Shown one piece after another: positions 1,229 through 20,922 of a DNA stretch of 42,963 bases. Every line of letters starts with the position of its first letter. Positions within the stretch are counted from its first letter, which is position 1. The notes beneath the pieces are model-generated. The model was not told the origin of the DNA, did no database searches, and worked only from the letters and a program-made list of their open reading frames with translations. The translations under genes were made by a program, and so were the position numbers. Source of the stretch: Gammaproteobacteria bacterium (GTDB taxonomy: Bacteria; Pseudomonadota; Gammaproteobacteria; Tenderiales; Tenderiaceae); assembly GCA_024277755.1 (NCBI GenBank), contig JAJRUN010000148.1, forward strand, positions 1 to 42,963. Reading direction: 5' to 3'.

Positions 1229-2167
1229 TTAGGGAGTACCCTCCTCTAAATCTGCCCCTTCTTTCTCAACCGGCATCAAGTCAGCCTTGCTCACCCCTAA
1301 CATCAGAATTGCACTACTAGCAACATAGATCGATGAGTACGTCCCCACCACCACACCTATAATCAAAGCTAAAGCAAAGGAGTGAATGATTTCACCCCCC
1401 ACAAAAAACAGGGCAAACAATACCAACAAGGTCGTTAATGAGGTCACCAGGGTACGCGATAAGGTCTGGGTAATAGAACTGTTTATCACTTCCATTGAGG
1501 TTCCTTTACGCATCTTACGAAAATTTTCGCGGATACGATCATAGACCACAATTGTGTCGTTCAACGAGTAACCAATTACCGCCAGAACAGCCGCAAGCAC
1601 CGTCAGATCAAATTCGAACTGAAACAGCGAAAAAATCCCCATGGTAATCACAACATCGTGAACCAAAGCAACGACAGCTCCCACCGAAAAACGGATTTCA
1701 AAACGAAAGTAGACATAGATAAGAATACCAAACAACGCAGCCAACATTGCCAGGCCGCCATCTTCGGTTAGCTCATCGCCGATCTGTGGCCCGACAAATT
1801 CAACCCGGCGCATATCCACATCCTGACCATCACTTTCCAGCGCACGCAGTACGCGGCTACTAACACCCGCCGTACCTTCACCCGCCTGTGGTGATAATCG
1901 AATCAAGACATCCTTTGATGTGCCGAAATGCTGCACTACAGCACTATCAAAACCAGCAGTTGTCAACGCCGAGCGCAGCTGCGACAAATCAGCTGATTCA
2001 GTATAACCAACCTCAACCAGGGTACCGCCGGTAAAGTCAATACCTAGATTCAGGCCTCGGGTTGCCAGCGAAACAATAGACACCAAAATCATCAACACTG
2101 ATGCAATCAAGGCCAGTTTGCCCTTGCTCATAAAATCGATGCTATGACTTGTATCCAGTATCTTCAT
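1229..2167 (-). CDS. secF: Protein translocase subunit SecF
   Basis: Inner-membrane SecF, which with SecD and YajC forms the accessory complex that uses proton motive force to help SecYEG pull proteins into the periplasm. The 312-residue length is normal. It has an N-terminal transmembrane helix, then the family signature around GIDFTGGTLVEV, a periplasmic domain, and five C-terminal membrane segments, including the conserved run VIGYSLNDTIVVYDRIREN. It is the last gene of the minus-strand block queA-tgt-yajC-secD-secF, 45 bp after secD, and its stop faces a terminator. Confidence 0.97.
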   Translation of the reverse strand: MKILDTSHSIDFMSKGKLALIASVLMILVSIVSLATRGLNLGIDFTGGTLVEVGYTESADLSQLRSALTTAGFDSAVVQHFGTSKDVLIRLSPQAGEGTAGVSSRVLRALESDGQDVDMRRVEFVGPQIGDELTEDGGLAMLAALFGILIYVYFRFEIRFSVGAVVALVHDVVITMGIFSLFQFEFDLTVLAAVLAVIGYSLNDTIVVYDRIRENFRKMRKGTSMEVINSSITQTLSRTLVTSLTTLLVLFALFFVGGEIIHSFALALIIGVVVGTYSSIYVASSAILMLGVSKADLMPVEKEGADLEEGTP

Positions 2168-6866: not shown

Positions 6867-6880
6867 CATAAAATAAAAAA

Positions 6881-6911
6881 GCCCCGCGGTTAAATCCGCG
6901 GGGCTTTTTTA
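6881..6911. terminator. Bidirectional intrinsic terminator
   Basis: A 9-bp GC-rich stem GCCCCGCGG/CCGCGGGGC (6881-6889, 6896-6904) with a 6-nt loop, A-run before and T-run after. It ends the tRNA transcript on plus and the glgC-GH57-malQ transcript on minus. Confidence 0.92.
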
Positions 6912-6948: not shown

Positions 6949-8424
6949 TTAACGCCCGTATTGACTCACCATTTTCTGTATTCGTGGTGCCAGCCCTTCA
7001 TCCAACTGCTGCCAGTCAAAACGCCAACGCCAGTTATTTTCTGTTGTGCCTGGCGTATTCATTCTGTGCTGACCATCGAGCGCCAAAAAATCCTGCATTG
7101 GAATAATGGTCAAGCAGGCTACTGATGCCAAGGCAGAACGAATCAAGGGCCAGGGCATGATTTCAGCAGGATGACCCAGATATTCAAACATGTGTTCGCG
7201 CACCTCAGTCGACAACGCCTCATACCAACCAAGGCTGGTGTCATTATCATGCGTACCAGTATAAACAACGCTGTCGAAGGTTTGATTGTGTGGCAAATAT
7301 GGATTGCTGGCGTCACCACCAAAGGCAAATTGCAGAATTTTCATACCTGGCAGATTGTGATGTTTGCGTAGGGCATCCACTTCTGCAGTAATAATCCCCA
7401 GGTCTTCCGCCACCAATGGCAAGGGATCAAACTCTTTATGCAATGATTCAAATAATGCATCACCTGGTGCCTTGACCCAGTGACCATTGATGGCCGTTTC
7501 TTCGTGGACAGGGATCTCCCAATAAGCCTCGAAACCGCGAAAATGATCGATACGCACCCACTCAAACATCTCCAGTTGAGTGGCCATCCGCGTCTTCCAC
7601 CACTTGAAGTCGTCGGCCTGCATTCTGTCCCAGCGATAATGGGGGTTCCCCCAACGCTGGCCTGTCTCGGAAAAATAGTCTGGAGGCACGCCCGCTACCA
7701 CCTCTGCCTGGCCATTATCGTCAAGACGGAAATATTCACGATGAGCCCAGACTTCAGCACTGTCATGAGCGACAAAGATAGGCATATCACCAAACAGGAT
7801 CACACCACGCTGACGAGCATAATCATGCAGAAACCCCCACTGACGAAAAAAGACAAACTGCTCAAAACGAATATAGTCAATGGCCTCGGCCAGAACCTGC
7901 TCGACCCCAGCCAATGCACTATTTTCATGCCCCCTAAGCGCTTCCGGCCAATTCAGCCAGTGACTATTGCCGTGTGCCTGACGAATCGCCTGAAACAAGG
8001 CATAGTCCTGCAGCCAGTGCTTGTTGCCAGCCACAAACTCATCATATTCGACACGCATGCTGCCATCAGCCACGAGCTTAGATTCCTGGTAGGCATTCCT
8101 GAGCATCGTTAGTCGATAGCTCACAAAGTTTTTCGGTTCAGCCTCCAGATCAACTGCCAGCAACCCCCACTCCTGCAGAAGTTCAAGATTAATCAACAGC
8201 GGGTTACCCGCATGCACAGATAACCCCTGATAGGGAGAAAAATCACCATGCGTCGGCACCAGAGGCAACATCTGCCAGACACTAACACCGGATGCAGCGA
8301 GGAAATCGATAAACTTATAAGCATCCCCGCCCAAATCACCGCAACCGACGCCACCAGGAAGCGAGGTTGGATGCAACAGCACCCCGGCACGGCGACGACT
8401 GAGAGGCGTATCTATCGTACCCAC
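6949..8424 (-). CDS. malQ: 4-alpha-glucanotransferase (GH77)
   Basis: Amylomaltase that moves alpha-1,4-glucan segments between maltodextrins. The 491-residue protein carries GH77 landmarks: RRAGVLLHPTSLPG near the N-terminus, GDMPIFVAHDSAEVW, the nucleophile region RIDHFRGFEAYW, the acid/base region LVAEDLG, and YTGTHDNDT. The GTG start directly abuts the TAA stop of the GH57 gene (TAAGTG), which indicates coupled translation. In this cluster it probably processes linear glucans released from or destined for glycogen rather than imported maltose; no maltose transporter is nearby. Confidence 0.95.
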   Translation of the reverse strand: MGTIDTPLSRRRAGVLLHPTSLPGGVGCGDLGGDAYKFIDFLAASGVSVWQMLPLVPTHGDFSPYQGLSVHAGNPLLINLELLQEWGLLAVDLEAEPKNFVSYRLTMLRNAYQESKLVADGSMRVEYDEFVAGNKHWLQDYALFQAIRQAHGNSHWLNWPEALRGHENSALAGVEQVLAEAIDYIRFEQFVFFRQWGFLHDYARQRGVILFGDMPIFVAHDSAEVWAHREYFRLDDNGQAEVVAGVPPDYFSETGQRWGNPHYRWDRMQADDFKWWKTRMATQLEMFEWVRIDHFRGFEAYWEIPVHEETAINGHWVKAPGDALFESLHKEFDPLPLVAEDLGIITAEVDALRKHHNLPGMKILQFAFGGDASNPYLPHNQTFDSVVYTGTHDNDTSLGWYEALSTEVREHMFEYLGHPAEIMPWPLIRSALASVACLTIIPMQDFLALDGQHRMNTPGTTENNWRWRFDWQQLDEGLAPRIQKMVSQYGR

Positions 8425-10134
8425 TTAGGTTTCCTGACCCTGGCGCATTACACCACCTGCATCAGGATCACCACCACCATGAGTAAAGGCATGAGAAAGA
8501 TGTTCAGGTGGTTCTTCGCCTAACATTTGGTATAACGTTGCCAATTGCATGCGGTAGAGGCGTTCAAAATCACGCACTGCCTCAGAAGGGTTGTAATCAC
8601 CAAACCACCAAAACCAGTCCGAGCCTTCACAAATACCCAGCTGTCGTTCTGCATTTTCAAGCTGCTCAGCCGTTAAGCGACCACTCGCCACAACACTATC
8701 AAAGTTTCGCTTGGCTTCAACCAGCATATCCCAGCCACGATTCTTGTCCTGATCACCAATCCAGGTAGAGAATGTTCCATAAACCCAGCTACCAGGCACA
8801 ATATGCGGCAATTCATCTGAAGCAGGGGCCTGATCCAGACACTCGGAAAAGGTTGTCAGTTGCAACCGAGGATTGGCCGATAACTGACTGTACAAGGCAC
8901 TCAGAAAATAATATGCATTTTCAGGGAAATATTCCCAAGCATTTTCACCATCCAGAATGATTGATACCACCCGCCCCGGCTTATCGGTACTGACATCAGC
9001 AATATTTTCCAGGTGGTGCATAAAGTCCGCAACTGCATCATCAGCGTGCCAGTTAGAATATTTAAAACCGATGGAGTCTGACAAACCATCATCACGAAAA
9101 AAGCAGCCAATCTTCTGGCCTTCCGGCAAATAAGGCTTGTGAATATCCTGATGTTCACGCAGATTCGAAGGTGTCTGCTCAAGATTCAAACTATTACGCA
9201 AAACACTCTCACCACTCGCTGCCCAGCGCAGACCATGCTTATCCAACAGCTTTAAGGTATCCATACACATGGAGCCTTCAGAAGGCCAGCAGCCCTGTGG
9301 ACGAAAACCAAAATAGCGCTCGAAGGTTTGCAACCCCTTTTCAATATGCCATTCCGTCCGAGCCTCACCTCCTGGATAAGCCTCTGCTAGCGGTAGCGGT
9401 GCCCCCGGCATGGCCTCATGAGTGCTCTTAATATCAAGCAACAAAGGCATGATCGGATGCGCATACGGCGTAAACGAAAGCTCTACCTGGCCATTTTCTG
9501 CCAAACGTCGATAACGACTAAGTACCCCACTCAACAACTCACTAATCACCGTCATTAATTCATGCCGGTCATGCAAGCTGAAACAACTACCTTTTTCCAT
9601 CAACGCCTTGATGCGCGGATCACGGCGACGCACGGTTTCACCCATCCAGCCAAGGTGATACCAGGTAACAATGTCAGCCATATACTGGTCGCTAACGTAG
9701 CCCCAGTCTTCCGGCGTATCCATTAAACGACCAGCCATCTCCGCTAAACGCTGAAAACAGGGGAAGCGTTTAATAATCGTACCTTCATTTGCACGAAGGC
9801 ACGCCTTAACCAGAATAATTCGCTGCTCAGGCTCTTCAGGCAAGGTTGAACTCACCAAAGACGATAACAAATGATCCTGTATCGCCTTACCTTCGCGTAA
9901 AAAAGCGGCGACTTGTTTGGCATAATCATCCAGTTGTTCAAGCAATATAGGTGCAAAATTTATCACCGCCTTGGCGGCCGGCACATCCTCAAGATGAGCC
10001 GCCATATCGACATAATCCTTTATGGCATGCAGATAAGTCCAAGGCAGAATATATTCGTCCGTGGAGGGATCAAAGTAGTTTGGTTGGTGCATGTGCCAGC
10101 ACAGCACCACCTTTAAGCGTGAATCAACGGACAT
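8425..10134 (-). CDS. Glycoside hydrolase family 57 protein
   Basis: Cytoplasmic alpha-glucan-active enzyme of family GH57. In 569 residues the conserved regions appear in order: the HQP motif in [11 protein letters not shown] near the N-terminus, the probable nucleophile in GCWPSEGS (E286), WAASGES, and the probable acid in [10 protein letters not shown] (D395). GH57 members are alpha-amylases, 4-alpha-glucanotransferases, branching enzymes or amylopullulanases, and the exact activity cannot be read from these motifs. The start overlaps the glgC end by 11 bp and malQ follows without a gap, so it is embedded in a glycogen operon. Because glgB (GH13) is already next door, a chain-hydrolysing or transferring role is more likely than branching. 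Confidence 0.88.
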
Positions 10135-11389
10135 AATGTAATTCTTGCCCCAACATTTCAGGTACTACCAGCACCACACCAGCCTCACTGACATGAAAAC
10201 GTTCAGCATCTGCAACCGGATCTTCACCAATTACCGTGCCCGCTGGAATCTTGCAACCCTTATCAACAATCGCCTTACGAATACGACAGTTCTCACCAAT
10301 ATCAACACCCGGCAAGATCACTGACTCATCAACTTCGGAATACGAATGCACACGAACATTGGAAAATAACAATGATCTACGCACCGTTGCGCCGGAGATC
10401 AAACAGCCACCAGAAACCATGGAATCAATCGCCTGACCACGTCGTCCCTCATCATCAAAGACAAATTTAGCCGGTGGCAGCTGCTCCTGATAAGTCCAGA
10501 TAGGCCATTCACGATCGTATAAGTTCAGTTCAGGCGTTACCTCAATAAGTTCCATATTGGCTGACCAGAAGGCATCGACAGTCCCCACATCACGCCAGTA
10601 ACCCTGGCCGCCCGATTGCACATCACGGAACGAATAAGAATAGATACTATAATCTTTAATAACAGCAGGAATGATGTCCTTACCGAAGTCATGACTGGAA
10701 TCCGGAGTATCAGCATCACGAATCAACTGTTCATATAGAAACTTGGTATTGAAAATATATATCCCCATGGACGCCAAAGCCACATCATCACACCCAGGAA
10801 CGGGCTCAGGGTTTTCTGGTTTTTCGTTAAAATCAACAACCCGGCCATCACCATCAACGCTCATCACACCAAAGGCCTTTGCTTGATCCAACGGCACTTC
10901 CAAACAACCAATGGTCATGTCGGCCCCGTTTTCCGCATGTTTGGCCAACATGGCACCGTAATCCATTTTATAGATATGATCACCCGCCAGAAGCAAAACA
11001 TACTCCGGATTATGGGTACGAATAATATCGATATTCTGATACACAGCATCGGCGGTACCTGAATACCAGGATTCCTGAAGACGTTGTTGTGCGGGCAACA
11101 GCTCGATGAATTCATCAAATTCGCCACGAAAATAACCCCAGCCTTGCTGGATGTGACGAATTAATGAGTGCGACTTGTATTGAGTGACAACACCAATTCG
11201 GCGAATGCCCGAGTTGATACAATTTGAAAGTGGAAAATCGATAATTCTAAATTTGCCACCAAATGGGACTGCATGCTTTACTCGCCAAGTCGTCAACTGT
11301 TTTAATCGGGTTCCTCGCCCACCAGCAAGAATCAGTGCAAGCGTATCGCGAGTTAACCGACTGACATAACGCGCATCATCCTGAGACAT
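10124..11389 (-). CDS. glgC: Glucose-1-phosphate adenylyltransferase
   Basis: ADP-glucose pyrophosphorylase, the committing step of glycogen synthesis. It has the nucleotide-binding signature [17 protein letters not shown], the [19 protein letters not shown] region, [11 protein letters not shown], and a C-terminal left-handed beta-helix. The frame is open to 11446, but the ATG at 11389 is preceded by AGGGGTGAAGAG, a strong ribosome-binding site, and gives 421 residues with the usual short leader before the GGRG motif; I therefore chose it. The gene is divergent from glgB across about 140 bp and heads the glgC-GH57-malQ transcript. Confidence 0.95.
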
Positions 11390-11530
11390 CTCTTCACCCC
11401 TTTTAATTTTATTCATTTGAGGAATACAACAATACTTCACTTCCAATCACGTCATTTAGTGTAACTACCGACGCAATGAAAACGTAAACTTATGCTATCA
11501 TCTTTTCAACAACTGTAACGGTGATATTTG

Positions 11531-13720
11531 ATGATGGCTACCAAGAAAACAGCAGCAATTTCTCCTGAACTTCAACGTATTCTCGACGCGAATCATCACG
11601 ACCCGTTTTCAGTTTTGGGCCGCCATTCCAATGGCAAAGAAGAGATTATTCGCGCGTTCATTCCGCGCGCCAAGCAAGTTCAAATTGCTGACACCAAAAT
11701 TCAACTGCAACGGATTGGCAATACCGACCTGTTCCAATGGACAGGCAGACCAGGGCAACTAAAAAAACATTATCGCATTAGCTGGACTAATGAAAACAAT
11801 CAGATCCACAGCAAATTCGATCCGTATTGTTTTGAACCCGTCTTATCCGAATTCGACCTGCACCTGTTTGGTGAAGGCAAACACTGGCATGCCTATCATT
11901 TTCTTGGCGCACGCATCATCGACGTAGAAGGCATCAGAGGAGTGTTATTTGCCACTTGGGCACCGAATGCCGAACGCATCAGCGTGGTTGGCGACTTCAA
12001 CAATTGGGATGGCCGCTGCCACCCAATGCGCAGTCGTGGTGACTCCGGTATTTGGGAGTTATTTATACCTGAGCTGACAGCTGGCAACATGTACAAATTT
12101 GAGATTCGCTCTCACATCAACAACCAGCTACTCCTCAAAACAGATCCCTACGGCCGTGCCTTTGAATTACGCCCGGGCACTGCATCTATTATCACCTCTG
12201 ACAACGAATTCCAATGGAACGATGACGCCTGGATTAATCATCGGGAAAAACGTGACTGGCTGCATGAACCCATGTCCATCTACGAGGTCCACCTTGGCTC
12301 ATGGCAAAAAGACGAACAAGGCAACTTCCTCAACTACCGTGAACTTGCAACCCGGCTAGTGAAACATGTGACACAGCTAGGTTTTACCCACATCGAACTC
12401 ATGCCTATCACCGAACACCCATTCGACGGTTCGTGGGGCTATCAAACCACTGGCTACTACGCCCCCACCAGCCGCTTTGGCTCACCAGACGACTTCCGTT
12501 TCTTTGTAGATTATTGCCACACCAATGGTATCGGTGTAATGCTGGACTGGGCACCTGGCCACTTCCCTAAAGATGCCTTCGGCCTTGCACGCTTTGATGG
12601 CAGTGCACTTTATGAACATGAAGACCCACGTCTGGGCGAACACAAAGACTGGGGCACACTGATCTTTAACTATGGCCGCAATGAGGTGCGTAATTTTCTT
12701 TTCTCCAGCGCATTGTACTGGCTGGAAGAATTTCATCTTGACGGCCTTCGTGTCGATGCGGTTGCCTCCATGCTTTATCTCGACTATTCGCGTGAAGCAG
12801 ATGAATGGGTGCCCAATAAATTTGGCGGCAGAGAAAATCTCGAGGCCATCCAGTTCATACGCCAGCTCAATGAAGTCACTCATGAAAAACACCCTGGCAG
12901 CCTGATTATGGCCGAGGAATCAACCTCATGGCCAATGGTGTCACGCCCTATTTATCTTGGCGGCCTGGGCTATAGCATGAAATGGAACATGGGCTGGATG
13001 AACGACACGCTGGACTATTTCAGCAAAGACTCAATCCACAGGCACTACCACCATGACCTTTTAACTTTCAGCCTGCTATACGCCTTTACTGAAAATTTCA
13101 TACTGCCCTTCTCCCATGACGAAGTGGTACACGGCAAAGGCTCAATGCTTTACAAAATGCCTGGTGACGAATGGCAACGTTTCGCCAATCTACGCCTGCT
13201 CTATTGCTATATGTTCACACACCCAGGCAAGAAACTACTATTCATGGGCTGTGAATTTGGACAAGGCAACGAATGGAACGAAGCCGAGCAGTTGGATTGG
13301 CATGTCCTGGATTATCCATTGCACCGTGGCGTACAGAACATTGTTGGCGACCTAAACAAACTTTATTGCAACACCCCGGCACTGCACAGGCACGACTTTG
13401 ACGGCCAGGGCTTTGAATGGATTGACTGCCACGATGCTTCCCAATCAATCTTAACCTATATGCGCCGCGATGGTGATGACACGGTCCTGGTAGTACTCAA
13501 CTTTACACCTGTACCAAGACACAACTACCGCATCGGCATCCCTTCCGAAGGTGTTTATGAGGAAATCCTGAACAGCGACTCCGAGTACTACGGTGGTAGT
13601 AACCTCGGTAACGGCCAACATATACAGAGCCAGCCACAGGAATGGATGAACCAGCCTCATTCGCTTGAATTGACACTACCACCACTGGCATCAATCATCC
13701 TCCGCAAAAAGGATAACTAA
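11531..13720 (+). CDS. glgB: 1,4-alpha-glucan branching enzyme (GH13)
   Basis: Creates alpha-1,6 branches in glycogen. An N-terminal branching-enzyme module and a CBM48 domain ([25 protein letters not shown]) precede the GH13 barrel. The nucleophile is D409 in [12 protein letters not shown] and the acid/base is E462 in MAEEST; the 53-residue spacing equals that of the E. coli enzyme. [12 protein letters not shown] follows. The start is ATG 11531 or ATG 11534; the upstream GGTGAT (11520-11525) suits either, while the TTG at 11528 is too close. Its stop is 4 bp from the end of the convergent CbiQ-like gene, with no terminator between. Confidence 0.96.
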
Positions 13721-13724
13721 TCCA

Positions 13725-14441
13725 TCAAACAGGCTTAGTCAGCAATAGCATGACAGCCAGCAACAATGATGGCCAGCACCACTGCCACCACGGTGGTTTG
13801 TCGACCACATTTATTTCAAGCACATCGCAATGACTCTGTCCGGCCTGCCGAACAACGCCAACGACCAAGTCAGCAGCGACAGCTGCATATGATTTAATAT
13901 CACCTTTATCGACATCACTCCTCTCAATCTGCGCAGCAACCTGTTGCTGCACATCGGCAACACGCTCCAGAGTCAGAGCGACCCGCACTGCAAATCGTTC
14001 ACGCTGCAGCCCCAGCACCTGCAGCGGTGTCGTCAGCCAATACAGCGCCGCAACCAGCTGTTGTCGCGACGTCACCGACAGCAACCAATGCACTGCCGCA
14101 ACAATCAAGACCAAGGCCAATAGACGTTGCCCACCCTGCCAAAGCCCTTCCACACTGGGTTGCAAAGACGAATCAAACGACTCGCCAAACAACGGCACTC
14201 CAGGAGTTAACCAGGCATATATGAAGACAATGGATAGTAAAAACCAACGCATACGCCGCAACATTTTCATAAAACCGGACAATTCACAGCTTGCCGTGGT
14301 GGCAAAAACCACAAAAACACCAAAAGAAGCAACAACCAACTGAGAAAAGTTACCCAACGCAAGAAACAAACTGAATATCACAAAGCAGATAACGCGAAAA
14401 ACCGGATGCACATGATCGTGCCATCCGGTTTTAGTATTCAT
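13725..14441 (-). CDS. CbiQ/EcfT-family membrane protein
   Basis: Probable integral membrane protein of the energy-coupling-factor T-component family. In 238 residues, hydrophobic segments lie at about 14-52, 65-80 and 103-120, followed by the family-like cytoplasmic stretch with LYWLTTPLQVLGL and a helical RERFAVRVALTLERV region, and a final helix at the C-terminus. The Ala-Arg-Gly coupling motifs of well-characterised EcfT proteins are not obvious, and no ECF ATPase or substrate-binding gene is adjacent, so transport partners, if any, are elsewhere. The start is 12 bp after the fimV stop. A terminator-like hairpin occupies codons 4-15 (separate entry). Confidence 0.6.
   Translation of the reverse strand: MNTKTGWHDHVHPVFRVICFVIFSLFLALGNFSQLVVASFGVFVVFATTASCELSGFMKMLRRMRWFLLSIVFIYAWLTPGVPLFGESFDSSLQPSVEGLWQGGQRLLALVLIVAAVHWLLSVTSRQQLVAALYWLTTPLQVLGLQRERFAVRVALTLERVADVQQQVAAQIERSDVDKGDIKSYAAVAADLVVGVVRQAGQSHCDVLEINVVDKPPWWQWCWPSLLLAVMLLLTKPV
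14397..14432 (-). terminator. Intrinsic-terminator hairpin inside the start of the CbiQ-like gene
   Basis: A perfect 11-bp inverted repeat, AAAACCGGATG (14398-14408 on plus) and CATCCGGTTTT (14422-14432), is separated by 13 nt that themselves pair 3 bp with a 6-nt loop. Read on minus it ends in CCGGTTTTT, the form of a rho-independent terminator. It lies 22-57 nt after the fimV stop and inside codons 4-15 of the next gene. Confidence 0.7.
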
Positions 14442-14453
14442 AAAAATAAAAGA

Positions 14454-17400
14454 CTAGGAAATTTGCTGTTTTAACTGCTCAGCCTCCTGACGCTGATCAT
14501 CATCACCCTCACCTGCAACCTCATCAAGAATTGAACGCGCACCGTCCTGATCACCCATATCAATATAAGCCTTGGCTAAGTCAAGCTTGGTATCGACCAT
14601 ATCACCAGAACTATCAAAGATGTCATCATTGCCATTATCTTCATCAGACATCTGGCTGAAATCCATTTCACCGAGACTTGCTATATCAGCCAAAGGATCG
14701 ACATCCGCCGCCATTGCCCTTGCCACAGTTCCCTGACTGGCAACTTCAGACTCTGACGCAGCCTGACCAGAATCCGCTTCATCGGTATTTAAAGGAGAAC
14801 CCAGCTCAATCGAGTTATCATCATCAGGAATTCTAGCACTATCTAGCAGGCCGTCAGTTTCTCCTTCCACATCTCGAGACTGAAATACCGATTGCGCAGC
14901 TTCCACATCCCACGATTCACTCTCATCACTTGAAAATGCTTCCAGATCAACCTCAGCAAGAGGATTCTCTGTATCATCCAAGTCCTGTTCGTCATCGGCC
15001 AATGACAACACTGGCGCAGCCACCGTATCAGACTCATCAACCCCCTCTGAAACCTCATCCAGCACAACACCCTCAGCGTCACTAAAACTTAAATCCGCGA
15101 TCAGGTCATCAGCTTCGCCCACCACTGGTTTATCAAGCCCAGCCATAAGACCTTCTTCAAGTGAGTCTGACAACTCAGATCCAAGATCCAGAAGCTCATC
15201 TTCTTCAATCTCGCCGCCGAGACTTTCAAGCTCATCGGCAAGAGAACTAATACTTTCTTCGGTCTGAGAGGACTTTTCAGCATCAGACAAAAACTCGTTA
15301 CTGGCATCCAGACTACTTAACTCATCAGCCCCTGAGACAGCCTCAAGCCCATCGACACCCAGATCAAGATCGTCAAGTGCTGCATCTGAGACAGCATTTT
15401 CCTCAGCCACAATGCCATCCGTGCCCGCTAAATCCAAGTCCAAGTCTAAATCGAGATCACCAAGATCAAGCTCATCCAGTGAAATATCATCAATTTCAGA
15501 GTTTAGTTCAGTGTTTTCCAGACCATCAAGTTCATTCAACTCATCAGCTGCATCGGCCAGATCAGACAACCCCAAGCTTTGAGCCAAGTCAGCATCACTG
15601 ACCTCCGCTTCGTCTGCAGCCAGAGGTTGAGGATCATCAAAACTCAGTTCTTCACCAACCCCTGAAGGCTCAAAGCCCAAATCAGCTTCGCTCAAACCGC
15701 CTCCAGCAACTGCAGAGCCATCGGCAAATAGTGGATGATCCGGCAACAGTTCACGCCCCATTTCTACAACCCGATTCCAAACCCCCTCGTCCTGCCCCGC
15801 CAACAATGCGTACAGTGACTCGGCCTGAGCTTCAAACGAATCCACATCTTTAGTGGCATGATAAATTTCCAGCAACTTAACCTTAAGCTCGTGACGATCT
15901 GCATCAGCATTAATCGCCTCCTTCAATAAGGCTTCAGCTTGCTCATAACGTCGATAGGCAAGATAGACGTCAGCCTCAGCAATTGGGTCAATCTCACTTT
16001 CTTCAGCCTGAATTGCCCCCAAACCACCACTAAAATCATCAATTGAAACATCATCACTGCTTTCATCTGATGCTTCATCAGAAGCCATTTTAGATGATTG
16101 ATCAGCCATGGAGCCCTGAGCAACATCATCAGCTGCGCTATCGGCAACCACACCAACCGGCGTCATTTCAGAAAAGTTTTCATCAGCATCAGACTGACTA
16201 CGCCGACGCATGATCAAAGCGACAAGCAGCAGCAACATTACCGCTCCACCACCTGTATACAGTGGATTTATCGCTAAAACCTCATCCAGCAGACTCATTG
16301 AAACAGGCTCGGGCTGGGCAACCGGTTTAACTGGAGGTTGTTTGGCAGCAACAGCCGCATCAACTTCAGGCTGAATAGCCTCTATCTGTTGTTTTAACTG
16401 AGCATCCGCTTGCAACACCCCCAAACTATCATCCTTAAGGGTTAATAGTTTTTGTACAGACTGCAGCTGTCTTTCAAGCTCATCAAGGCGTAAACGCAGA
16501 TCTGAATTTTCCTGGCCGCGCACCTCTGAAGACTCTAATGCAACCGCCAGTTGACGCTGCAAAGACTCAACAATATCGCTGGCCGCACCTGAACCCACAC
16601 CTGAACGCACCATAGCTTCTTCCTCAGGCGTTAACAGCTGCAAACGAGCCTGAGTCGGTGTTTCTGCTGCCTTGACTGGAACAGCTACTGGCGAACTAAC
16701 TTTTCCATCAGCCGAGGCAGGTGTTGGCGCAGCAACACGCTGATGACGACCAACAGTAGAGGACTTACCCCTTGCTGACTGCCAGTCATGATATTGACGA
16801 TTCGCCTCAGCAGCCGCCTGCTGCTTAGAGAGTTCGGTAATGACATTCATCTCAGGCGCGCGCAGAATATGGCCCGCCTTGAGATTATTAATATTATTAT
16901 TGCCAAAAGCTTCCGGATTTTCTTTTAGCAAACCAATCATCATCTGCGGCACGCTGACCGAACGATCTGGCCGCATCCCCTTGGCAACGCCCCAGAGGGT
17001 GTCACTGCGATTGGTAGGACCATAACTTCCCGCAGGGGCTACACGCGGCTGCACAGCTGCGCCAGCCGCTGATGACGACCTAACAACCTGAGTAGACTGA
17101 GTTGCAGCAACACTGATACGCCCTGTCTGTGACTCTTTTTCAAACACAGGCGGATCAAGCAACAGGGTGTATTCACGCATTAACTGGCCGCTGGACCAAT
17201 TAATACTGAGAATAAAATCGAGAAAAGGCTCTTTGATGGCCTTGCTGGAAACAACCTTAATATATGGGGCACCAGCACCGGAACTAACAAGTTCAAACTT
17301 AAGCTCACGCAATATTGACAGACGCTCAATACCCACACGTTCAAAAGCCTCACGCGGGGCCAACGATATCCCCAAGGTTTTAAGCTCGCTTTTCGTTGTT

Positions 17401-17552
17401 GAAAACAACTTGATTTTAGCAGCAAGGGGTTCATTCAAGGCAGTACTTACCTCTATTTCCCCCATACCCAAAGCGTGAACAAGACCTGATGTCACCATCA
17501 TACATGCGCTTAAAGCAACTGCTAATCGACGTTTTTTAAATCCCTTAGTCAA
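14454..17552 (-). CDS. fimV: FimV-like inner-membrane hub protein with LysM and TPR-like end
   Basis: FimV-family polar hub/peptidoglycan-binding protein, linked in Pseudomonas to type IV pili and cAMP signalling. With the TTG start at 17552 (AGGA nine bases upstream) it has 1032 residues: a signal peptide ending near VHA, the FimV N-terminal region ALGMGEIEVSTALNEPLAAKI, a LysM domain at about 181-232, a coiled coil at 327-376, one transmembrane helix at about 432-451, then a very acidic cytoplasmic region (including repeated DLDL) and the C-terminal FimV helical repeat DLAKAYIDMGDQDGARSIL at about 990. The frame is open to an ATG at 17594, which has a weaker site and would give an unusually long n-region. 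It follows the asd/usg genes as in Pseudomonas, but truA does not follow. Confidence 0.9.
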   Translation of the reverse strand: MTKGFKKRRLAVALSACMMVTSGLVHALGMGEIEVSTALNEPLAAKIKLFSTTKSELKTLGISLAPREAFERVGIERLSILRELKFELVSSGAGAPYIKVVSSKAIKEPFLDFILSINWSSGQLMREYTLLLDPPVFEKESQTGRISVAATQSTQVVRSSSAAGAAVQPRVAPAGSYGPTNRSDTLWGVAKGMRPDRSVSVPQMMIGLLKENPEAFGNNNINNLKAGHILRAPEMNVITELSKQQAAAEANRQYHDWQSARGKSSTVGRHQRVAAPTPASADGKVSSPVAVPVKAAETPTQARLQLLTPEEEAMVRSGVGSGAASDIVESLQRQLAVALESSEVRGQENSDLRLRLDELERQLQSVQKLLTLKDDSLGVLQADAQLKQQIEAIQPEVDAAVAAKQPPVKPVAQPEPVSMSLLDEVLAINPLYTGGGAVMLLLLVALIMRRRSQSDADENFSEMTPVGVVADSAADDVAQGSMADQSSKMASDEASDESSDDVSIDDFSGGLGAIQAEESEIDPIAEADVYLAYRRYEQAEALLKEAINADADRHELKVKLLEIYHATKDVDSFEAQAESLYALLAGQDEGVWNRVVEMGRELLPDHPLFADGSAVAGGGLSEADLGFEPSGVGEELSFDDPQPLAADEAEVSDADLAQSLGLSDLADAADELNELDGLENTELNSEIDDISLDELDLGDLDLDLDLDLAGTDGIVAEENAVSDAALDDLDLGVDGLEAVSGADELSSLDASNEFLSDAEKSSQTEESISSLADELESLGGEIEEDELLDLGSELSDSLEEGLMAGLDKPVVGEADDLIADLSFSDAEGVVLDEVSEGVDESDTVAAPVLSLADDEQDLDDTENPLAEVDLEAFSSDESESWDVEAAQSVFQSRDVEGETDGLLDSARIPDDDNSIELGSPLNTDEADSGQAASESEVASQGTVARAMAADVDPLADIASLGEMDFSQMSDEDNGNDDIFDSSGDMVDTKLDLAKAYIDMGDQDGARSILDEVAGEGDDDQRQEAEQLKQQIS

Positions 17553-17704
17553 TATCCCGATCCTGATTTTCGTCCTAACATAACATCCAGCCATCCTATA
17601 TAACGGCTATCGTTCGTTTTTTTTGAATATTTAGCTATTTTTTTTGAACCCGGCCACAAAGCCACCCGTTCTCCATCAAAAAGCTAGAACCTCATCCTTG
17701 CTAC

Positions 17705-18709
17705 TCAGTTCAGATAGTCTCTTATCAAAATTTCGGCAATCTGAATACTGTTAAGGGCTGCCCCCTTGCGTACGTTATCGGCGACCAACCACAAATCTAT
17801 ACCTTTTTCATGACTAGCGTCTTGACGCAACCGTGAAACCAAAACAGTATCTTCCCCCACAGCATCAACAGCTGGCGTAGGCAACCCATCCGCAACCAAG
17901 CTAACAGCAGCTGCAGCTTGGAGCAAATCACTCACCTTCTCCAGCCCTAAAGTCTCGACAGTCTCGATATGTAATACCATTGCATGACCATGAAAAACAG
18001 GCACTCGTACACATGTGGCATTCAGTGCCACATCCTGCCCCAAGATCCGACCGACCTCCCACGCCAGTTTCACCTCTTCACGACTATAGCCATCGTCAAG
18101 AATCAAGCCTATTTGTGGCAACAGGTTGAAGGCTATCTGTTTGTCGAAAACATTACTGTCAATGGTTTGCATATTAAACATGGCCGTTGACTGTTTGGCC
18201 AACTCCTCTATTCCAGCCTTATCCTTGCCTGAAACAGCCTGCAAGGTAACCGCGTTAATACGCGCAACACCTGCGACATCAAATAAAGGTTTAAGTACTG
18301 TGGTCAGCAAAATGGCATTGGTGCCTGGATTGGCAATAATATTTTGCGCCGTATAGCCAGCCAGTTTTTCCGGATTGACCTCGGCCACCACCAACGGCAC
18401 ATCGTCCTCAAGCCGGAAACAAGGGCTATCATCGACAACCACACAACCAGCTGCCGCAGCTCTTGGCGCATAGACCTCCGCCAATGCATCATCAACACAA
18501 AAGAAAGCCAACTCTGCCTGCGAAAAATCAAATGTCTCAAGCAGCTCAACTTTCAGATGACGATTTTTATATGTGACCCGGCCACCTGCATCGTCAGCAA
18601 CCGCATAAATAGAAGCAACGGGAAACTCCCGCTCCTCCAACAACGTCAAAACGGCTTCACCCACCAGACTATCGCAACCAACCACCGCAACGTTATAACT
18701 TTTACTCAT
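17705..18709 (-). CDS. usg: Aspartate-semialdehyde dehydrogenase paralogue (USG-1 type), catalytic Cys absent
   Basis: Homologue of Asd with the N-terminal NAD(P)-fold motif VAVVGCDSLVGEAVL and full length (334 residues). The region that in Asd holds the catalytic cysteine (NPNC or GGNC) reads ANPGTNAILL here, putting Thr at residue 130 where Cys is needed. This matches the USG-1 group of inactive Asd-like proteins often found beside asd and fimV. Dehydrogenase activity is therefore unlikely; its role is unknown. It starts 6 bp after the asd stop. Confidence 0.85.
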   Translation of the reverse strand: MSKSYNVAVVGCDSLVGEAVLTLLEEREFPVASIYAVADDAGGRVTYKNRHLKVELLETFDFSQAELAFFCVDDALAEVYAPRAAAAGCVVVDDSPCFRLEDDVPLVVAEVNPEKLAGYTAQNIIANPGTNAILLTTVLKPLFDVAGVARINAVTLQAVSGKDKAGIEELAKQSTAMFNMQTIDSNVFDKQIAFNLLPQIGLILDDGYSREEVKLAWEVGRILGQDVALNATCVRVPVFHGHAMVLHIETVETLGLEKVSDLLQAAAAVSLVADGLPTPAVDAVGEDTVLVSRLRQDASHEKGIDLWLVADNVRKGAALNSIQIAEILIRDYLN

Positions 18710-18715
18710 TCAGTA

Positions 18716-19828
18716 TCAATCCTCAAGCAAGATGCGCAGCATGCGACGTAAGGGCTCAGCCGCACCCCACAACAACTGGTCACCCACGGTAAAAGCCGAC
18801 AGGTAATCATTACCCATACTCAGTTTACGCATCCGCCCCACGGGCACAGTCAAAGTACCCGTCACCGCAGCCGGCGTAAGATCGCTCAGCGTTACCTGCG
18901 GTTCATTCGCCACAACCTTAACCCAATCATTGTGACTGGCAATGATGTCGCTGATCTCATCCAGAGGGACATCCCTGGTCATCTTGATGGTCAACGCCTG
19001 AGAGTGGCAACGCATGGCGCCAATACGCACACACAGACCATCTATCGGCACCGGGTTATCACTACGACCGAGAATCTTGTTGGTCTCAACCTCAGCCTTC
19101 CACTCTTCTTTGCTTTGGCCGGATTCAAGCGGCACATCAATCCACGGAATCAAAGATCCAGCCAACGGCACTGGCCATGATTTTGCTGGATAATCATCTG
19201 AACGAATAAACTCTGCGGTCTTTTTATCGATATCAAGAATGGCAGCAGCCGGATCATCCAGCAATGATTCAACATTGGCATTAATCGCACCCATCTGCTG
19301 GATCAGTTCACGCATATTGCGCGCACCAGCGCCAGAGGCCGCCTGATAAGTCATCGGCGTCACCCACTCCACCAGACCTTTTTCAAACAGACCGCCAATC
19401 GCCATCAACATCAAACTAACCGTGCAGTTACCCCCCACAAACGTCTTAACGCCATTGGCCAGACCATCCTTAATCACATTTTTATTGACTGGATCAAGCA
19501 CAATGATGGAATCATCTTTCATCCGCAACGCCGAGGCGGCATCGATCCAATAACCAGCCCAGCCAGCGGCACGCAAGGGGGCATAGACCTCCTTGGTGTA
19601 ATCACCCCCCTGACAGGAGATAATCACATCCATAGACTTCAATTCATCAATGCTTTTGGCATCCTTCAGTACTGGCACATTCTTGCCAACATTCGGCCCC
19701 GCCTGCCCCGCCTGTGAGGTGGTAAAAAATACCGGTTCAATATCGGCAAAATCATTATTGTCGCGCATGCGCTGCATCAACACTGAGCCAACCATCCCGC
19801 GCCAACCTATAAACCCAACTCGCTTCAT
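18716..19828 (-). CDS. asd: Aspartate-semialdehyde dehydrogenase
   Basis: Reduces aspartyl phosphate to aspartate semialdehyde for lysine/diaminopimelate, threonine and methionine synthesis. It has 370 residues, the NADP-binding start [18 protein letters not shown], and the catalytic cysteine C135 in [12 protein letters not shown], the same number as in E. coli Asd, followed by [16 protein letters not shown] and the active-site [10 protein letters not shown] region. It lies 20 bp after leuB in the leuCDB-asd-usg run. Confidence 0.96.
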
Positions 19829-19848
19829 TCTCGTGTCTCTCTGAATTT

Positions 19849-20922
19849 TTATACCAGCGCAGCGACGACTGCATCACCCATTTCCGAACACAACACCCTC
19901 TTGGTGCCCTCGGAGTAGATATCCACGGTGCGATAACCATCCGCCAACACCTGCTTCACCGCAGCATCAACGCGCTGGGCAGAAACCTCATCGCCGAAAG
20001 TGTAACGCAACATCATGGAGACAGACAGAATAGTCGCCAGTGGGTTTGCAATATCCTTACCGGCAATATCCGGTGCTGAACCGTGAATCGGTTCATACAT
20101 GCCCTTGTTATTTTCATCCAGCGAAGCAGACGGCAACATACCAATGGAACCGGTCAGCATAGACGCTGCATCAGACAAAATATCACCAAAGATATTGCCC
20201 GTCACAATCACATCAAACTGCTTTGGTGCCCGCACCAACTGCATGGCGGCATTATCAACATACATATGACTGAGTTCGACTTCTGGATACTCTTTACTGA
20301 CCTCGATGACAACCTCTTTCCACAACTCACTGCATTCCAGCACATTGGCCTTCTCGACCGAGCACAGCCGCTTATCACGCTTCATGGCAATCTCGAATGC
20401 CATGTGGGCAACACGGCGCACTTCAGACTCTGAATAAAGCATGGTGTTGAAACCCACCCGTTCGCCATTACGCTCTTCAATGCCACGTGGCTCACCGAAA
20501 TAGATATCCCCCGTCAGTTCACGCACAATCATAATATCCAGACCGGAAACCACTTCCGGTTTCAGCGAAGAGGCATCTGCCAGCTCTGGATACAACAAAG
20601 CTGGACGCAGATTACCGAACAGGTTCAGCGCCTTACGGATGCGTAACAGACCACGTTCAGGACGCAAAGGACGATCCAGGCTATCGTACTGCGGGCCACC
20701 CACAGCACCGAGCAAAATCGCATCCGAGTTTCGCGCCAGCTCAAGTGTCTCAGCTGGCAGTGGGTCACCCGCTGCATCGTAACCTGCACCACCAATCGTG
20801 CCGTTAGTCATCTCAATGTCCAGACCATGATTGGCCTTCAATGCCTCAAGCACCTTAACCGCTTCACGCACAATCTCCGGGCCAATACCATCACCCGGTA
20901 ACACTGCAATTTTTTTAGTCAT
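19849..20922 (-). CDS. leuB: 3-isopropylmalate dehydrogenase
   Basis: NAD-dependent oxidative decarboxylation of 3-isopropylmalate in leucine synthesis. The 357 residues show the start [22 protein letters not shown], the substrate-binding [38 protein letters not shown], and [27 protein letters not shown] with the metal-binding Asp residues. It lies between leuD (77-bp gap) and asd. Confidence 0.97.

Follow-up and report, generated by a model that had tools for sequence, protein, structure and literature searches.

In the gammaproteobacterial stretch of 42,963 nucleotides analysed here (contig JAJRUN010000148.1; referred to as the window), a terminator-like hairpin lies within the first codons of the gene that follows fimV. 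This hairpin is probably a leaky intrinsic terminator belonging to fimV, into which the beginning of a gene for an EcfT/CbiQ-like membrane protein extends; it would be kept by selection and would lower the expression of the EcfT-like gene relative to that of FimV. The terminator itself would be of the ordinary kind; its overlap with coding sequence is unusual, without amounting to a new kind of system.

On the minus strand, the TAG of fimV (14456-14454) is followed by 12 nt, the ATG of the next gene (14441-14439), the letters AATACT, and then the hairpin (14432-14398); from its first base on, the strand reads AAAACCGGATG-G-CAC GATCAT GTG-CATCCGGTTTT-T-CGCG. Its stem consists of 11 perfect pairs and 3 inner pairs across a bulged G, and it spans codons 4-15 of the 238-residue EcfT/CbiQ-like gene. 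The features of the junction are as follows.

14454..17594, minus strand: fimV, the longest open reading frame (1046 aa), with FimV_N and TPR_19 matches
14454..14456, minus strand: stop codon TAG of fimV, read from the sequence
13725..14441, minus strand: gene for the EcfT/CbiQ-like membrane protein (238 aa), from family and fold matches
14439..14441, minus strand: ATG, probable start of the EcfT/CbiQ-like gene; 12 nt separate it from the fimV stop, and it lacks a Shine-Dalgarno match
14418..14432, minus strand: 5' hairpin arm within codons 4-9, including the bulged G at 14421
14412..14417, minus strand: loop of the hairpin, from the fold
14409..14411, minus strand: GTG codon 11, an alternative start, aligned with the first Met of many relatives
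14398..14411, minus strand: 3' hairpin arm within codons 11-15, which encode V-H-P-V-F
14397..14401, minus strand: U-tract TTTTT, four of whose five Ts are able to pair with the 5' AAAA

The sequence-only reading had described a hairpin of 11 perfect pairs (14 with the inner three) with five Ts in codons 4-15; sequence and fold confirm this description, and the layout bears out its view that a terminator-like hairpin is packed into the first codons of coding sequence.

The core stem has a stability of -14.6 kcal/mol and qualifies as a stable G+C-rich hairpin. The 81-nt region around it folds at -22.3 kcal/mol (z -3.29), a stability equalled by 2 of 200 shuffles. Terminator strength was scored with a function of the type of d'Aubenton-Carafa et al., with a cut-off of > 0. 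The score of the hairpin, 12.1, is the highest of eight positive same-strand sites within coding sequence in the 43-kb window; considering that there are eight such sites, the hairpin by itself is only moderately unusual. When the EcfT-like protein was recoded synonymously, one of 600 trials attained the score of the hairpin. A search of positions 13000-16000 with Rfam covariance models gave no matches at E up to 1, and a promoter scan of positions 8000-20000 was uninformative (14 found, 14.0 expected). Elsewhere in the window, at 6874-6911, a strong intergenic terminator-like hairpin on both strands (scores of about 58 and 62) lies behind the minus-strand open reading frame 6949-8424.

The label 'CbiQ-like', given to the downstream gene by the sequence-only reading, is right at the level of the fold. 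The protein of the window has no match in Pfam at 0.001. TIGR02454 is matched at 2.7e-6 (27.3 bits), far under its cut-off of 111.8. When 18 relatives were aligned and compared with PF02361 (CbiQ) at E up to 1, 13 gave a match, with 1.3e-5 as the best value. The AlphaFold model of the protein (pLDDT 77.7) has chains of ECF transporters as its top structural matches, such as 7nnu_D (E 6.9e-8) and the CbiMQO chain 5x3x_Q (TM 0.67).

The case against a chance origin of the hairpin rests mainly on its conservation. In all of the seven sampled genomes of the genus (the window's own included; G000, G001, G005 and G006 are among their labels), the EcfT-like gene stands behind fimV and the hairpin falls in the same codons. 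All of the 98 pair cells (14 pairs in seven genomes) hold standard pairs. Four of the 14 pairs vary, and one of these (columns 31/59) is changed on both sides in G005, from A-U to G-C, which alters both Thr5 and Val14 to Ala. Covariation is not decisive, because ten of the 14 pairs never vary: the number of double changes is matched by 194 of 500 shuffles, and the paired percentage by 140 of 500. As the shuffle control was not exceeded, covariation was dropped as sole proof of the stem. The score is above zero at the site in all seven genomes, being 12.1 in the window but a weak 1.5-5.6 in the six congeners. The weak side of the terminator reading is the short U-tract, which is UUUUU in G000 and G001 and UUUU in the other five.

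The choice of codons points in the same direction. The amino acid is conserved in 72 degenerate codon columns, and six of these columns are codon-invariant: four of the five in codons 1-16 (GGA, CAT, CCG, and CGC) versus two of the 67 elsewhere (Fisher p 7e-5). For the stem codons alone the figures are 3/4 versus 3/68 (p 0.0013), since the stem stops just short of R16, whose codon is among the four frozen ones. For each genome 600 synonymous recodings were made, of which 0-4 attain the observed score. From these comparisons among related sequences, the hairpin appears to be kept by selection.

Junctions outside the genus were collected by a profile search, in which 99 of the 369 genomes sampled from the class proved to carry the EcfT-like gene. 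Of the 101 matched places, 90 were included; the 11 left out were the junctions of eight genomes, the one in G035 (already represented by L022), and a second piece each of G156 and G360. The anchor step was applied to 100 loci and anchored 98 (L022 and L111 have no anchor), and the exclusion of 14 without a fimV end by pattern and of L114, a duplicate of L021, left 83 junctions from 39 families. The counts for the control windows still include L114. The EcfT/CbiQ-like protein stands directly behind fimV in 84 of the 98 anchored loci (83 genomes), and it may be an orphan T component, with some role in the vicinity of fimV; a search of open-licence papers found none that names both FimV and CbiQ. 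There are no relatives in viral contigs, and a scan of genome contigs with a single protein query gave one true relative, L023, which is apparently the same contig as L002.

A hairpin with a score above zero is present at 28 of the 83 junctions and in 16 of the 39 families. The corresponding counts in the control windows are 1/535 in the interior of fimV, 7/137 in the interior of the EcfT-like gene, and 7/84 on the opposite strand of the junction. With the window's genus removed, 21 of 76 junctions are positive versus 7 of 137 windows in the EcfT-like gene (p 6e-6). For 20 of the 28 cases, the distance from the fimV stop to the beginning of the stem is 19-35 nt; without the genus, the figure is 13 of 21. 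The stem is complete before the HP motif in 19 of the 28, and so lies between the two genes or at the very beginning of the second. In the remaining nine it ends beyond the motif: the seven of the window's genus, L015, and the weak case L030. There is no hairpin above the threshold at 55 of the 83 junctions. The same holds for 34 of the 43 junctions with a gap to the HP motif of less than 50 nt, so that a terminator at a tight junction is the exception. As a base rate, a simple long-ORF gene caller applied to 800 kb of the 3.66 Mb of the congener G006 gave 195 same-strand junctions whose gap is at most 50 nt, and three of these score above zero.

The example of L015, from another genus of the same family, comes from one sequence in one genome. 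Near position 515 on the minus strand, an 11-pair stem, AAGCCACCCTG-TGAT-CAGGGTGGCTT, is followed by CTTTTTT and falls in the opening codons of the EcfT-like gene (S-H-P-V-I-R-V-A). It is stronger than the hairpin of the window, an AGG codon for Arg completes its stem, and none of 600 synonymous versions equals its score. HP is encoded in the 5' arm in L015 versus the 3' arm in the window, and the two embedded hairpins are therefore probably of independent origin, as judged from how they are built. In another locus, L017, the tail of the fimV terminator (ATTGTTTT) runs as far as the ATG of the EcfT-like gene (1492-2163, minus strand), which leaves no space for a ribosome-binding site outside the hairpin.

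Two other origins or roles of the hairpin were considered and rejected. A repeat element or mobile hairpin was rejected because the window's own genome holds only one other exact CCGGATG...CATCCGG hairpin (L115:1500-1535). That copy lies 20 nt past the stop of another gene, which resembles a DAHP synthase gene, and is followed by ATTTTTG; its place and tail also favour the terminator reading. The other role was that of a bidirectional terminator also serving glgB. In the window, glgB (plus strand) and the EcfT-like gene (minus strand) converge with 4 nt between them (13721-13724), so that any terminator of either gene would fall in the coding sequence of the other. The plus-strand score of the hairpin is 8.1 in the window, but it is above zero in only one of the seven congeners; therefore, service to glgB is not a conserved role.

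How the hairpin is to be read depends on where the EcfT-like gene begins, and the true start is likely the one at 14441, to judge from the alignment. Position 1 is ATG or GTG in all seven congeners, and an ATG stands at the same place in the sister genus represented by L008. The distance from this start to codon 11 is fixed in the genus, while the gap from the fimV stop to the start varies between 12 and 19 nt. The alternative, that the gene starts at the GTG of codon 11 (14411), would turn the hairpin mostly into a leader that hides the start and the SD-like GGATGG, and thus into an ordinary terminator abutting the gene. Many relatives do begin at a matching Met before HP, and the SD-like match upstream of codon 11 amounts to -5.7 to -7.0 kcal/mol; codon 11 is, however, GTG in five of the seven congeners and GTA in the other two, and with the conserved start codon and fixed spacing this makes such a start unlikely. 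A start downstream of the hairpin, which by the sequence-only reading would count against its proposal, is likewise argued against by the start codon at the ATG position in 7/7 congeners. That proposal was an attenuator: transcripts would mostly stop at the hairpin unless ribosomes starting at 14441 cover it and let the polymerase through, so that the gene would be made only if its start is used promptly. The terminator-like hairpin in the first codons stands, but neither the mostly-stop nor the self-initiation part of the proposal finds support. The scores in the six congeners and the UUUU tracts of five genomes do not fit a stop of most transcripts. Control by the gene's own initiation is highly improbable, even though all seven congeners have the start codon 7 nt ahead of the hairpin, which is wholly within the reading frame. 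In E. coli, according to PMC4824070, a terminator placed 30 bp after the AUG lost only about 10% of its efficiency when that AUG was translated, as the ribosome cannot load in time. The start of the 14441 type has no Shine-Dalgarno match in any of the seven congeners, which makes prompt loading still less likely, and no leader peptide or pause site was identified at the junction, whose structure was folded singly and as a consensus. The missing match is not specific to the embedded cases, and was rejected as a mark of them: a match of -4 kcal/mol or lower, with the best start used, is found in only 22 of 73 other loci.

The remaining alternatives concern whether the hairpin has a function, and at which stage. 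As a by-product of protein and codon conservation, it would result from the HP conserved in the family and from G-W codons that chance to pair with those of HP. HP is indeed nearly invariant in the family, positive scores within genes occur by chance, and the seven genomes are of one ancestry. On the other hand, GGA is used in 7/7 at this site though it is a minority codon for glycine (21/104 in the seven EcfT-like genes and 23/254 in the fimV parts), and the excess of invariant codons, the rarity of recodings that attain the score, and the pair changed on both sides together with two amino acids all speak for the stem; a by-product is thus very unlikely. The hairpin could also act on the finished RNA without stopping the polymerase, either as a brake on initiation of EcfT-like translation or as a barrier that protects the end of the fimV mRNA. 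Pairing begins at +10 of the coding sequence, inside the area where the ribosome lands, the conservation of the stem codons fits any RNA function, and the U-tracts are short. Such a role is nevertheless rather improbable, in that the hairpins of other families, at the same distance from fimV, have classic U-tracts and precede the gene, and L015 has six Us after a stem in the same embedded place.

The reading of the hairpin as a leaky terminator of fimV may be put together as follows. The terminator would sit at the usual distance past the fimV stop, its stem core 25 nt after it. Because in this genus the next gene starts only 12-19 nt past that stop, the terminator lies inside its first 15 codons and must encode protein as well. 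By inference from the sequence features, RNA polymerase would terminate at the hairpin in a fraction of the transcripts leaving fimV, and would read through in the rest. The terminated fraction is taken to be partial, the EcfT-like gene would live mainly on read-through and so be expressed at a lower level than fimV, and the selective purpose may be the ratio of the two products. Between the fimV stop and the first paired base there are 21 nt (21-28 nt across the genus), so that the ribosome finishing fimV, by analogy with E. coli, would be a likelier modulator of the hairpin than a ribosome at the EcfT-like start.

In the frd/ampC attenuator of E. coli, the terminator that closes the upstream operon also restrains the gene after it; unlike the hairpin of the window, it lies in the ampC leader and not in the codons of ampC. 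A close likeness to the proposed arrangement is found in the ABC importers of Ruminiclostridium, in which, according to PMC9045158, internal intrinsic terminators with few Us and paired tails set the ratios of neighbouring genes, as measured. The hairpin directly behind the first gene, the few-U tail partly paired upstream, and partial read-through (proposed here) are shared. In contrast, the Ruminiclostridium stem-loops are intergenic and their effects were measured, whereas the hairpin of the window lies in the coding sequence of the next gene and its effect is a predicted one. PMC4824070 deals with terminators that fall in the first 100 bp of coding sequence, namely tR2 constructs in E. coli and the pyrBI leader-peptide gene, in which the hairpin likewise comes shortly past the start codon; termination is expected there, since the leading ribosome is still behind RNA polymerase. 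Those cases are engineered or in a leader peptide, whereas the present one is in the gene of a 238-residue protein and is maintained across a genus. In a study of premature 3' ends within E. coli 5' UTRs and ORFs (PMC7815308), 20% of the 3' ends agree with intrinsic termination, and most of those inside ORFs are attributed to processing. The E. coli gene ispU, from the same source, resembles the present case in premature termination near the gene start, which is intrinsic in ispU, and differs in that its terminator is in the 5' UTR and not in codons. An attenuator in the promoter region of ampC is mentioned in PMC11796351. Within the open-licence papers on terminators in or near first codons, no description of the fimV/EcfT-like junction was seen.

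A further reading goes beyond the leaky terminator, and the chances are somewhat against it: selection on the fimV terminator may have dictated the codons, and even the amino acids, of the EcfT-like N-terminus, a dual-coding arrangement that would have arisen at least twice in the family once the gap had become too short for an intergenic terminator. If this is true, each terminated fimV mRNA would carry the start of the next gene without a stop codon; a weak start there would then keep ribosomes from stalling, and the ribosome that leaves fimV could influence termination. Terminators in coding sequence are easily discounted as chance, but the conservation, the frozen codons, and a second, differently built example argue for a function here. 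The junction may thus offer a natural test case for the action of terminators in first codons, for control by the ribosome of the upstream gene, and for the handling of mRNA ends that lack a stop codon.
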